A stretch of DNA of 64,000 nt, taken from positions 14,276,501-14,340,500 of the forward strand of contig OZ014411.1 in NCBI GenBank assembly GCA_963965975.1. Reading direction: 5' to 3'. This DNA comes from Xestospongia bergquistia (Eukaryota; Porifera; Demospongiae; Haplosclerida; Petrosiidae). Both the position numbers and the translations under genes were made by a program. Shown piece by piece: positions 28,397 through 34,345 of this stretch. The notes beneath the pieces were generated by a model. The model searched no databases, was not told the origin of the DNA, and saw only the letters and a program-made list of their open reading frames with translations. Positions within the stretch are counted from its first letter, which is position 1. Every line of letters begins with the position of its first letter.

Positions 28397-29019
28397 ATTT
28401 CGATATCAACACGACTTTAAGCTTAAGAATTGTCATTCAAGTCTGACCCATCGCTAAGAGAGAAGGATCTGGGAACAATTGCATGTAAAAATCTTGGAGG
28501 TCACAGAAAAGCTTTGTTCATTTACGAGCTCCTCTTTTTCACCTGTTCAAGCTGAGTCAGCAATAGTTAATAAAGTCTTCAGCTACTCGACACTCTGCTC
28601 TTAAAGCAGTACAAGAAAGTTTAGTTAGTAAAGTACAGTCTGTGCTTCTATTTGAAAGATCAACTCCAATCATTTACTTTTTCTACCTCTCCTAACACGT
28701 GCTCAAGTCAAAGTATGCTCAGCCTACATCCATTCCAGCTCTGCCAGTCGGTCCTATATGTGCTTGTCCCCAGACCTTTATCAGGTTATTAACTTTAAAC
28801 GTAAATTACTGCAATCAAATAACTTTATCAACTATTGTTGATACAGTTATCAGTTATGATTTTCTAGTGATGTATATGTATGATTTTCTAGTGATCGTGA
28901 GTATACTTTATCAACATCTGTTTAAGGGTTTGATTCCACTTTTCATCCAATCCATTTGCCTATTAAATTTTACTCATAGTAATATATCATAAGCAACTGA
29001 CTACAATACCTGGGGATGA
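28397..29019. other. R3 distal upstream region and junction with the inserted block
   Basis: Up to about 28550 it matches R2 upstream DNA. Beyond that the sequence is unrelated to any other copy, so the foreign 5.7-kb block appears to start near 28560-28620. The plus-strand open frame 28699-28992 has no recognisable domain. Confidence 0.45.
28831..28875. repeat. 45-base direct repeat, left copy
   Basis: Starts ACTATTGTTGATACAGTTAT and matches 30941-30985 at 44 of 45 positions. A partial tandem copy of its end (ATGATTTTCTAGTGAT) follows at once. The two copies bracket the integrase fossil. Confidence 0.9.
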
Positions 29020-30720
29020 GAGGGTGTGGTATAGTGTCATTTTACATTAGGCAAGGAAATGGCCTCCACCCATTTTGTAAAATAATCTAAGAAAACAATT
29101 CTAACTTCTAGATGTTGGAGATACTGGGCTGACAAAGTCTCGGATGAAGCTCACAGTTAGTGACAATTAGGTTTTGTTCATCCTCATTACAGATATTAAC
29201 ATACATGATATAAACAACATTAAATTTTAAACAAACTTACCACCTCTTTAAAATCATTCCATACACATTGTTTTGCTTTCTTTTTCACAACTGGCAGGGA
29301 AATGGGTTAATTGTCTTATTATCAAGACAGTGACAAAGGTGGTCCCTTAATTGATGTTGAATATAGGTTATTTGTGTTGAGGTTTGCCAGCCAGAAATAG
29401 ATGTGTCAAAAGCTAACGAAATCCCCACAACCATTTGTACCATGTCCATCATGGTTTGATAGATATCTTTCAGAAATTTCTGTCCAACAGTGATGACTGC
29501 ATTACTCAGCAGCCTATCATTGATCAATGATTTCTGTCTAGATCTGACAGAAACAATGTTAATTCTTGTATCCAATCTAGGGTTGGGACATGCTTCTTGT
29601 TTGTTAGGTCCACACAGTCTATTGGAAAAGAGCTAAGTAGTGAAGTGAAACACTTAAAGTATACATACATTCAGAATTAAGGGATTTCTTTCTTGTCCAT
29701 TGCTGCTGTTTCCTCTTTTTAGCATCACTGATGACAGCTAATGCAGCTAATGATAAGCCCCTTTGATCAAGTCTTCCTTTACAATCTTTTTTATTAGTCT
29801 GATGTGAAGTACCTATTTAACCTGTGGGTAATATGGAGCTGTTTAGTGTTGTTTGATGTTGAGTTTTCTCATTAATTCTTTGCTTCAAACATTTTTAAAC
29901 TCTCTCCCTGATGTTATAATTCTTGGGAGATCTATAGTCATAAAAAGCTAGTAAAGGAATGAATGATTACCACTGTTTAAAATATTGATCTGTCATACCT
30001 TCAACAACTTATAAGCAACTCCTACATCGTCTTTTGTTAATAAAGCAGCTGCTGTGACCAATTTTGTGAAATAATCACTAATTGTCAATTTCCTGATTAA
30101 GACAGAGGTGACAATGGTCCAATATAATCATCCCCAATGTGGTGCCATGGTGAATAAAATAGTATAGAGTGTAGCTCTGGTCTCATAGTTGTCAACTTGT
30201 CTTTCATTCTTTGACATTCATCACATGAAGATACCTATAACAAGTCACAGTACAACATATAATAAGAACAAGGCATCAATTTCCTCACATTTTGTATGAC
30301 TCCATACAATGTAAATCTCTCAATAATTCTATTATAGTTCTTTTTTCACCAAGATGTCCGATGTTGGGTCAGCATGGCAACAGTGCACAATTTGTAAATT
30401 ATCAGTCTTTGATCGCACATACCCACTGAAAATAGAAACACTATTATAAATTATTGCAAGATAGTAAAAAAGAAATTGAAAAAAATAATATAAACTTGTC
30501 CTGGCTTTTTCTCATAGTACACTTCTCTTTCTCTCAATGTTAGCTTGTCAGCCTTTTTCCTAATTAAATGCTTCTTCCATTTAGCAGGACAATCTGAGGC
30601 ATATGTTCCATTTTCTATGTAGTTTATTGCCTCCTAATCATGTTCCCATCATCTCTCTCCTTTGACATTTTTCTGACACTTTGAAATTTCACCAGGTGGT
30701 TAAAGCTCTCCATTTAAGTA
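29020..30720 (-). mobile_element. Broken integrase-bearing retroelement fossil (Ty3/gypsy-type, possibly GIN/Ginger lineage)
   Basis: A degraded minus-strand element. Near 30500-30600 a charged segment (CPAKWKKHLIRKKADKL) resembles the leader of these integrases. Around 30180-30370 lie pieces of the HHCC zinc-binding region (GHLGEKRTI, then SCDECQRMK). Around 30020-30120 is the start of the integrase core (DYFTKLVTAAALL). A second core fragment (DYFTKWVEAISLP) at about 29030-29085 shows that at least two related copies or a rearranged one are present. No protease, reverse transcriptase or clear LTR was seen. It is broken in many places and looks old. Whether the parent was a Ty3/gypsy LTR element or a Ginger-like relative with the same integrase cannot be settled here. 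Confidence 0.65.
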
Positions 30721-30940: not shown

Positions 30941-30985
30941 ACTATTGTTGATACAGTTATCAGTTATGATTTTCTAATGATGTAT
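30941..30985. repeat. 45-base direct repeat, right copy
   Basis: Matches 28831-28875 with one difference. It covers the last codons and the stop (30960-30962) of the kinase-DUSP gene. Confidence 0.9.
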
Positions 30986-33664
30986 TGTTCTCCTTGGGCC
31001 AACTACTATCAAAATTTCTCATTTCTAACATTAATATCTGAAATATAGCAAAAAATAGTAATAATATAGTAATTCATCATTATACCTGTCTATTATAAAT
31101 ACCAACATTAGGTAAAGTCTGGGTTAAATTAGTAAGTAGATCATAACTGTTTGTCATGTAACATTTCCACAGTCTACACTCAATAGTGTTAGATAAGTTG
31201 AATAGTTCTTTTCCCTTCTCAATAACAGTTTCTATTATAATAAAAATACATTACTCAGAGGATATTTATGACATACCTACAGTGTCAAATATATCAAATG
31301 ACCACAGTATTATATTATTAGTATTTGGATGTATACATAGTTTTAATTCAACCTTCTTTGGCCAACTACCATCAGGATTTCTTACTTCTAACATTAACAT
31401 CTACTAGAGAGAATGAAATTAATAACCTCATATATCATAATACCAGTCCTCCATAAATACCAGCATCATGTAAAGTCTGATCTAGATTAATATGTACTTC
31501 ATAGCTGTTTATCATGTAATGATCCCATAGTCTACATCCATCAGTTACAGGTATACTAAACAGTTCTCTTATCTTCTGTATAACAGTACCTACAATAATA
31601 GTTTAATGTCATGTAGTTAATTATGTCCTTGTTCTTACCAATTGTGGTTGCTCTACTAAAGTGAACATATTTGACATCATTGACATGTGGATACAAAGAC
31701 ACTTTAAGTTCAAGCAGATAGACATCAACCTTCAAATGCTTTACATAAGTACCATGTTCCACTACATACCTAATAGTAAATAATAACAGTATAGTATAAT
31801 ACTATCTTATTCTTACCTACAAATAGGTTGTGATCCTACTGAGAGTCCATACCAACTAACTAAGAGATCCCATACTGGTTTAGGGAGTAAAACATAGTCA
31901 AACCATTCAATTAGATCATCTCTTAAGGTGTTTGGTTTAATATCTGTATAATGAATAAAGCAAAGTGTAGATTCTCAAATATCTTACCTTTGAATAAATT
32001 TAGATTATCTAAAGGACCAGGATCACCAATCTCAATACCAGATTTCCACTGATCCCAGGAGTCAAATCCAGCATTAATCTTCCATTGTGTGAGCCATCTT
32101 TGATCAACCAAATACCTAATAACATGATAGAGAATTATAAAAGGGGTCAAATACATTTTACCAGCTATCTCCTTTTCTTAACTGTTGTACCAATAGTGGT
32201 TGTATGATATCTTTTTGATCTTGATATAAAGGAGCTGTTTGCAGTTCAGATTCTAGAATGTTAATTACATCATGTTTAGACTTTAGAGCATTTTCAAGCA
32301 CTTTGTTAAGTGATGTCACATCTGCTTTTAGCTGTACATTCTCATCTATTAGTGATTTCACTGTGATGTTTGCTTTATGTAACAACATTTCAGCTTTAGT
32401 TAGCTGTCTTTGAAGATGATCTAATTGCTGTTGTAATTCTAATGATTCACTTTCTTTTAGTCTAGTAACTTCTCTAGCTATACGTACTTGCTTTTGATAC
32501 TCCTGAGACTGTGTTTGAAGTTGTATTAGTTTAATGTGTTCATTTATTTCTTTTTGTTTAGAATTTGTCAATAGACTAGTTTTGTCTACAGCTGGTTCTC
32601 TCTTATCCTCATGAGTATGTTTGGTCCCTTGTTTAGACTTTTGAATCCTGTCTTGTAAACACACTACTTCACTTTCTTTAGATTGGACTAATTGTTGTAA
32701 ATCACTGATCTCTTTCATCATCTCTAGTTTATTCTTTGAAGGTGTGATTTCAGAGAGAGCACCATCAATACGCTGAATTGCTTCATTCATAGCTGGTCTA
32801 TTTTGGGGTTTATTGTCGAGACATTGTCTTGTAAAATGATAGAGAGGGTTATTTTGTAATTGTTTAGTGTACTTTGATCTTCTATCCCACTCTGAGACCA
32901 AATCAAAAGATGTCCATCTAAACCAACCAGTACTCGGGACATACTGATCAGTAGGTTTAGGCCATTGGTGTGTAAAGACATGGAGGATGAGACAGCCATA
33001 GGAGAAGACATCTAGCTTGTGATCATAACTTGGATTGTCCTTATGAGCTTCAGGAGGCATTACACTCCAATTACCTGGTGCTTTAGTAAATTCTTGTTGT
33101 TTGAAGGTATCTGCCATTCTGGACACACCTAAGTCAGTTATCTTGGCTATAAAGTTGGAGGTCAGCAATATGTTATTGGCTGTGAGGTAACGATGGACAA
33201 TGGGAGGTGTCTTACAATGAAGATAATTAAGACCCTTTGAAATATCAAGAAGAATGGAGTACTTGATTTGAAGTGGAAGATCTTGATGTGTTTCTAAACA
33301 GTGTGTTAATGACAGAGGAAGATACTCCATTACTAACATAGGTAGTCGAGAATGTTGAGAGAAATGGACACCCATTAACTGAACAATGTTTGGGTGACGT
33401 AACTGACTGTGACAAAGACACTCTTCAGCAAACTTAACTAATGTTTCACTCTAGGAAGAGATAACAAGATGTAGTGATTATTTCATTATTAACTAGTATG
33501 TGTACCTGTACAATAGCTTCATGTAGAGTCTTACCAGCACAAACCAGTCCACCCACTCTAACTTCAACTACCACACCATAAGCTCCACGACCTAATTCTT
33601 TACCAGTCTTCTTTACATTATCCAGTAACAAAGACTTAAGCTGATCCTGACGTCTTCCTGCCAT
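30960..33664 (-). CDS. (Pseudo)kinase - coiled coil - DUSP - UBL - UBL fusion protein, 775 residues
   Basis: Exons: 33506-33664, 32162-33450, 31988-32115, 31817-31943, 31639-31769, 31444-31589, 31277-31400, 31086-31231, 30960-31037; total 2328 bases, all junctions GT-AG and in phase. Start is the ATG giving MAGRRQDQLK; the frame upstream has only GTG. Kinase domain about 20-285: glycine loop GRGAYG 25-30, Lys45 in VCAGK, DLG 159-161, PPE 185-187, RP at 271-272. The catalytic motif reads HRY (Tyr141) instead of HRD, so catalysis is doubtful. About 290-478 is coiled coil. From about 480 a DUSP domain follows (YLVDQRWLTQWK, GFDSW, PGPLDN, LLPKPVWDLLVSWYG), as in USP4/11/15, then two ubiquitin-like domains each ending in a SWPK motif. 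No ubiquitin-protease Cys or His box is present. Likely cytosolic; a ubiquitin-linked scaffold role is inference. Confidence 0.88.
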
Positions 33665-33949: not shown

Positions 33950-34345
33950 CTAAAACACTAGCACATATTCTTTCTCCCAGTCACAAACACAAACAAGATC
34001 AACAGCAATACCACAAGGAGATTGTATGTGTCCTTTCCCTTTCTGACTAACTACTTGACCATCTATAGAGAAGACAGGCACATTTAAATCTCCCTTTTCT
34101 GTTATGTACATATTGTCTCCATTAACACAGATATCTTCAGAGTCTTTTCGTATGGGTTGTTCATCTTGCATATAAATATGATTTTGAAAACTACTGTTAA
34201 TATGACCTATTATTTGTACTCTATAGCTAGTATTAATAACATACATTTTGTCTTCATCATCAAAAGCTATATCCATACAATGAATGAATGATCCTGGTTA
34301 TTACCAAAACTACCAATTGAGACAATGAAGTCAAGTGTGTTAAGA
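33950..34345 (-). pseudogene. NHL-repeat beta-propeller fragment
   Basis: The open stretch 34276-33950 encodes MDIAFDDEDKMYVINTSY, then EDICVNGDNMYITEKGD, VFSIDGQVV and GIAVDLVCVCDWEKEYVLVF, which are NHL-type blades of the form gIAvD..g.vyV.D..n.rV.vF. Immediately upstream a further blade piece (DFIVSIGSFGNNQDH) is in another frame, so a frameshift lies near 34290. There is no start, signal peptide or companion domain. NHL repeats and kinases co-occur in some sponge proteins, so it may be the remnant of an N-terminal partner of the kinase gene below. It could also be an exon of a decayed TRIM-NHL-like gene. Confidence 0.6.

Follow-up and report, generated by a model that had tools for sequence, protein, structure and literature searches.

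The described systems closest to the gene treated here are the deubiquitinases USP4, USP15 and USP11 on one side and the TKL kinases CTR1, TNNI3K, roco4 and IRAK4 on the other. According to excerpts of PMC4243247, the isolated DUSP-Ubl of USP4 supplied in trans makes the catalytic domain of this enzyme up to about ninefold faster (at 150 μM) and binds the insert of this domain with an apparent KD of about 44 μM; stimulation in trans required the module at high concentration and is stated to be conserved only in part in USP11 and USP15. The same excerpts report ten mutations that lowered USP4 activity, R40E being described as harmful, and name positions 24, 40, 51, 134 and 136 and the range 88–92, which we took as the ten. 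The binding site of SART3 on USP4 is the linker that connects DUSP and UBL (excerpt of PMC7935551). In PMC4624187, where Amphimedon serves as the outgroup for USP4/15/11, the four occurrences of 'kinase' found are all within the reference list. A kinase-DUSP-UBL architecture was not found among the matches listed in our search, which covered the literature. To our knowledge, a DUSP-UBL tail is not a feature of the TKL families named above.

The window, by which we mean the whole stretch of Xestospongia DNA analysed (C1:14276501-14340500, 64 kb), contains a gene in which these two systems are combined, at 30960..33664 on the minus strand. Re-reading of this strand gave nine exons in an open frame of 775 residues with the stop codon at 30960, all eight introns being bounded by GT-AG, and the continuous nine-exon model proposed by the first-pass annotation could in this way be rebuilt from the sequence. 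Its features, in window coordinates, are the following.

33506..33664, minus strand: exon 1, with the start codon, the glycine-rich loop (GRGAYG) and the ATP-anchoring Lys (CAGK)
32162..33450, minus strand: exon 2, a single ORF with the remaining kinase domain, the coiled coil and the USP-derived leader
33187..33189, minus strand: codon TAC of Tyr141, which replaces the catalytic Asp of HRD (HRY, residues 139-141)
32245..32733, minus strand: coiled-coil-like stretch, residues ~293-455
32162..32226, minus strand: USP4/15-type leader YQDQKDIIQPLLVQQLRKGDSW, residues 462-483, with base 32115 completing the Trp codon
32116..32161, minus strand: intron 2, phase 2, splitting the Trp codon, with an equivalent position in the C9 USP gene
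31988..32115, minus strand: exon 3, first half of the DUSP
31817..31943, minus strand: exon 4, second half of the DUSP
31639..31769, minus strand: exon 5, end of the DUSP, linker and start of UBL1
31444..31589, minus strand: exon 6, UBL1, 146 nt
31277..31400, minus strand: exon 7, last part of UBL1 and first part of UBL2
31086..31231, minus strand: exon 8, UBL2, 146 nt, equal in length to exon 6
30960..31037, minus strand: exon 9, last part of UBL2 with the stop codon

The predicted order of kinase, coiled coil, DUSP and two UBLs, with no protease, was borne out by profile searches of the 775-residue model, in which every domain scored above its Pfam cut-off: PK_Tyr_Ser-Thr with 127.6 bits against 23.1 (residues 20-280), DUSP with 62.9 against 29.3 (residues 480-571) and Ubiquitin_3 with 126.5 against 24, in two stretches, the best at 597-675. 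Among solved structures the DUSP and UBL1 match USP4 (E 4.2e-64), USP15 (~1e-62) and USP11 (2e-31), and the order of leader, DUSP and UBL1 is that of these proteases. The 163 residues between kinase and DUSP include only two Pro/Gly, 32% of them are charged, and their heptad signal was equalled by 20 of 5000 shuffles. None of the 117 UCH matches listed for the genome (a lower bound, with 149 of 166 candidates scored) falls in the window or in C5:1155001-1490000. The protein thus differs from USP4/11/15 in lacking a UCH match, in carrying an N-terminal kinase and coiled coil, so that the DUSP-UBL module is not N-terminal, and in having the UBL repeated.

As for the kinase, the label TKL-like is a fair one at the sequence level. 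Among the best 60 of 2140 matches to solved kinases, CTR1 (1.5e-26) and TNNI3K (1.3e-24) stand near the top and roco4 and IRAK4 follow, but TK kinases are mixed in with them, namely an EGFR entry (3.5e-26) and AXL. Besides this similarity of the whole domain, the window copy shares with the TKL kinases the Lys of CAGK and the DLG motif, and has PPE where APE stands; it differs from them in the missing Asp of HRD and in the DUSP-UBL tail.

In the 146 Mb of genome surveyed (21 contigs), 43 DUSP exon matches were found: 37 on C5, two each on C7 and C9, one on C11 and one in the window, 35 of those on C5 lying between 1.16 and 1.48 Mb. From the window and 20 + 1 + 2 selected stretches we obtained 28 DUSP start exons; the genome-wide search lists no DUSP match in the parts of C5 between the searched stretches, and a DUSP second half at C5:1377405, without a start exon among the 28, is uncounted. 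USP genes with UCH pieces downstream account for two of the 28, one of USP4/11/15 type (C9:2883457) and another (C7:8235001) which we take to be of USP32 type, its EF hands having been recognised by eye and part of its upstream region being masked. Apart from the 28, the DUSP on C11 has UCH pieces upstream of it. A full-length kinase precedes 23 of the 26 non-USP start exons, lying no more than 2 kb away on the strand that carries the exon, while at C5:1360481, C5:1467826 and C5:1475366 the upstream kinase is absent or a remnant. The predicted kinase-DUSP-UBL fusion is therefore present in at least 23 genes, 20 of them in the array at C5:1.16-1.48 Mb and three elsewhere (the window, C5:2240808 and C7:6652337). 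Because the same domain order recurs at 23 of 26 exons, and in view of the E-values given above, chance is excluded as its source. The number of UBL units per fused gene ranges from 0 to 6 as a tblastn lower bound, C5:1369234 and C7:6652337 having none at the tblastn threshold; the units have multiplied to six at C5:1184224 (L011-L012) and to four at C5:2240808 (L029). In bacterial contigs 52 loci were found that match in the kinase part only, their best segments being 22-38% identical, and a search of viral contigs for relatives found none.

The history of the family was probably one of a single fusion, followed by losses and swaps. In the kinase tree (31 rows) the 23 DUSP-bearing kinases do not form one group, four kinases without DUSP nest among them, and five changes are needed, at least three of which are forced by starred branches; 15 of the 28 inner branches of this tree are open, seven rows are long-branched and C5:1475366 was left out. 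The DUSP tree (29 rows, C7:6652337 being dropped as it lacks the DUSP second half) places the C9 USP, USP4/15, the window and the copies at C5:1.36 and 1.46-1.48 Mb in one unresolved group. Kinases of the same family as that of the window are followed by other tails or downstream ORFs. Over kinase exon 2, L031 and L032 are 71% and 70% identical to the window; L031, a C2 kinase, continues, as judged by eye, into an extended coiled coil and ends in a hydrophobic C-terminus, and L032 is followed by ankyrin and LRR ORFs, possibly of a separate gene. In L033 a Kelch match below the cut-off follows the kinase, and in L035 a strong one lies in an ORF downstream of the kinase ORF. From these four loci it appears that the tail of this kinase family is exchangeable, and that DUSP-UBL is one of several.

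At the ten USP4 positions the window protein keeps five residues (R40, F51, I88, D92, Y136), has three similar ones (M24L, D89E, E134D) and differs at two (E90W, L91F), while the C9 USP keeps seven, the others being M24L, I88M and D89E. Position 51 is aromatic in 22 of the 23 fused genes. Position 40 is R in seven, K in nine, L in one and acidic in six (five D, one E); since it varies in this way, one shared action for the whole family is disfavoured, and the way in which the USP4 module acts on a USP may not apply to many of the copies. The DUSPs of one array clade are 80–85% identical to that of the C9 USP with omega of 0.06–0.13; for C5:1464311 and C5:1478095 the identity is 85% and omega 0.08 and 0.06, values that rest on dS of 1.6–1.8, near saturation. 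For the copies near the USP, the sequence comparison supports docking of the DUSP-UBL on USP-type partners. The idea that the module has left the ubiquitin system and become one of several swapped protein-binding tails, in an array serving variable recognition (for example in immunity), would fit the other tails or neighbours of the four close kinases, the range of 0 to 6 UBL units, the diversity of the array DUSPs and the acidic residues at position 40, but it is opposed by the strongly conserved clade just described, which points to a kept partner, and on balance we regard it as rather unlikely.

Of the 23 fused genes, 20 retain the catalytic Asp of HRD (19 HRD, one HHD); the three that have lost it are the window copy (HRY), C5:1174826 (HRV) and C7:6652337 (HFG). 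CAGK is present in all 23 and DLG in 22, the window included in both counts, C7:6652337 having DLC. With HRY standing for HRD, the window copy is a probable pseudokinase; GAC and TAC differ by a single base, so an assembly error or a polymorphism is a possible origin of the change. The distant kinase-coiled coil-DUSP gene L026 (C7:6650314-6652618), whose kinase is 45% identical and has HFG and DLC, is a further pseudokinase candidate. The suggestion of the first-pass annotation that a kinase joined to a ubiquitin module links phosphorylation with ubiquitin consequently fits the relatives, most of which keep the Asp, better than it fits the window copy itself.

Selection appears to act differently on the two halves of the window gene. 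Median pairwise omega in the family is 0.36 for the kinase (231 pairs, 22 genes) and 0.39 for the DUSP (230 pairs, 22 genes), with the three DUSP units lacking a full kinase, C7:6652337 and the two USPs left out of the pair counts. The window kinase branch carries 34 nonsynonymous changes in 550 sites and 28 synonymous in 152 (omega 0.34; 0.31–0.35 in six three-way comparisons), and by these estimates the window kinase is under purifying selection. The window DUSP is nearly neutral in comparison with its five nearest copies (omega 0.67–1.08), though omega is 0.24 against C5:2240808 and 0.16 against the C9 USP. For the first DUSP exon, a possible excess of omega over 1 was dropped from consideration because it rests on very few synonymous changes. 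That the window gene is a decaying paralogue, with the catalytic Asp lost and the DUSP drifting, would agree with HRY, with the omega of the DUSP against its near copies and with the three non-USP start exons whose kinase is absent or a remnant, but it is opposed by the nine open exons, by GT-AG at every intron and by the low omega of the kinase branch, and we consider this reading rather unlikely.

The point at which the two parts are joined proved to be different from that assumed by the first-pass annotation, which had placed the domain boundary exactly at the split Trp codon and taken this coincidence as an argument for the fusion. Homology to the USPs begins about 22 residues upstream of this codon, within exon 2, and the matches to solved USPs likewise start upstream of the exon 2/3 junction. 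In the C9 gene of USP4/11/15 type an exon ends with YKTQKEEIQPLLSQRLKKGDEW and has its GT donor within the same Trp codon (exon end LSQRLKKGDEW, donor GTAAGA, near C9:2883160, a phase-2 intron in the same codon). Because the protease gene shares this intron, the USP part is its most likely source, and the real joint, as placed by the homology, is just upstream of the leader, inside exon 2. Support for the fusion therefore comes, in place of the junction, from the unbroken ORF and the relatives: judged from ORF ends, the kinase ORF continues unbroken into a leader ending in D-x-W in 17 of the 23 genes. In 18 genes the TG|GT donor together with the leader motif was picked up by a script, which missed the C5 copies 1169758, 1179239, 1189373, 1209538 and 1369234, of which C5:1369234 ends in DEW by eye; with acceptors read by eye, the split codon would be Cys instead of Trp in 1161412, 1169758, 1179239, 1189373 and 1209538. 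That the model wrongly merged a kinase-coiled coil gene with a separate, neighbouring DUSP-UBL fragment is highly improbable and was set aside, for although a stop codon right after DSW in the exon 2 ORF would end an unspliced kinase protein there, the leader stands in frame with the kinase inside exon 2 of the window, the single kinase-leader ORF of the 17 genes argues strongly against neighbouring genes, and the donor lies in the Trp codon in the 18 genes found by the script. The joining of the kinase to the DUSP-UBL of a deubiquitinase without its protease is confirmed at the level of the gene model.

Between 2442 and 61676 the window is occupied by the tandem repeat families D1-D5, with four or five copies each at spacings of 9–18 kb; in D5 a single step measures 20.8 kb, and a copy was probably skipped there. 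Similarity to 7tm_3 (class-C receptor) was seen in two ORFs of the repeats, with E 6.5e-7 and 6.3e-5, neither match reaching the cut-off. The kinase gene lies between two repeat copies, and its interval is the widest in D1-D4 (16.0–17.5 kb). The introns of the gene suggest that it reached this place at the DNA level rather than by way of a processed copy. On the same minus strand, short ORFs at 29000-30700 resemble an integrase or retroelement by eye, three of them having been Pfam-scanned with no match, and a 115-residue ORF at 33950-34297 resembles NHL repeats by eye, also with no Pfam match. Kinases are abundant in this genome, with at least 151 matches at E <= 0.001 after scoring of 150 candidates out of 369, and more clusters on C14, on C11, at C5:6.3-7.0 Mb and at C7:0.2-0.36 Mb.

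The explanation that we tentatively prefer, its probability as a whole being somewhat short of even, is a fusion made inside an exon and present in many copies, with DUSP-UBL docking on USP4/15 partners and a kinase-dead scaffold in the window. As read from the sequence, a TKL-like kinase with its coiled coil was joined to the front part of a gene of USP4/11/15 type, comprising leader, DUSP and UBL; the joined gene retained the intron of the USP and not its protease, and exists in at least 23 copies with a varying number of UBLs, of which that in the window, amid repeats of receptor-like genes, has lost the catalytic Asp. The products would oligomerise through the coiled coil, and their DUSP-UBL end would dock where that of USP4/15 docks, at the catalytic insert of the USP or at shared adaptors. 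Active copies would deliver kinase activity to this docking site, and the window copy may act there as a kinase-dead partner or scaffold, perhaps raising deubiquitinase activity in trans or competing for it. Confidence in this mechanism is lowered by the acidic residues at position 40; the near neutrality of the window DUSP against its nearest copies, the high concentrations required for the effect of USP4 DUSP-Ubl in trans and the two copies with no UBL at the tblastn threshold also count against it.

The finding shows the capture of a regulatory module of a deubiquitinase by a kinase family, with at least 23 genes in one genome carrying it. That these genes form a regulatory family, in which the DUSP-UBL freed from its protease acts in trans to recruit kinases or kinase-dead scaffolds to deubiquitinases of USP4/15 type or their adaptors and tunes the removal of ubiquitin, the array copies diversifying as a signalling repertoire, is a doubtful extension of the same idea. 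The gene fusion would provide a link between phosphorylation and the control of deubiquitinases that is directly testable, given the activation of USP4 in trans by its DUSP-UBL in isolated form (excerpts of PMC4243247), and the natural copies with and without the catalytic Asp would serve as controls.
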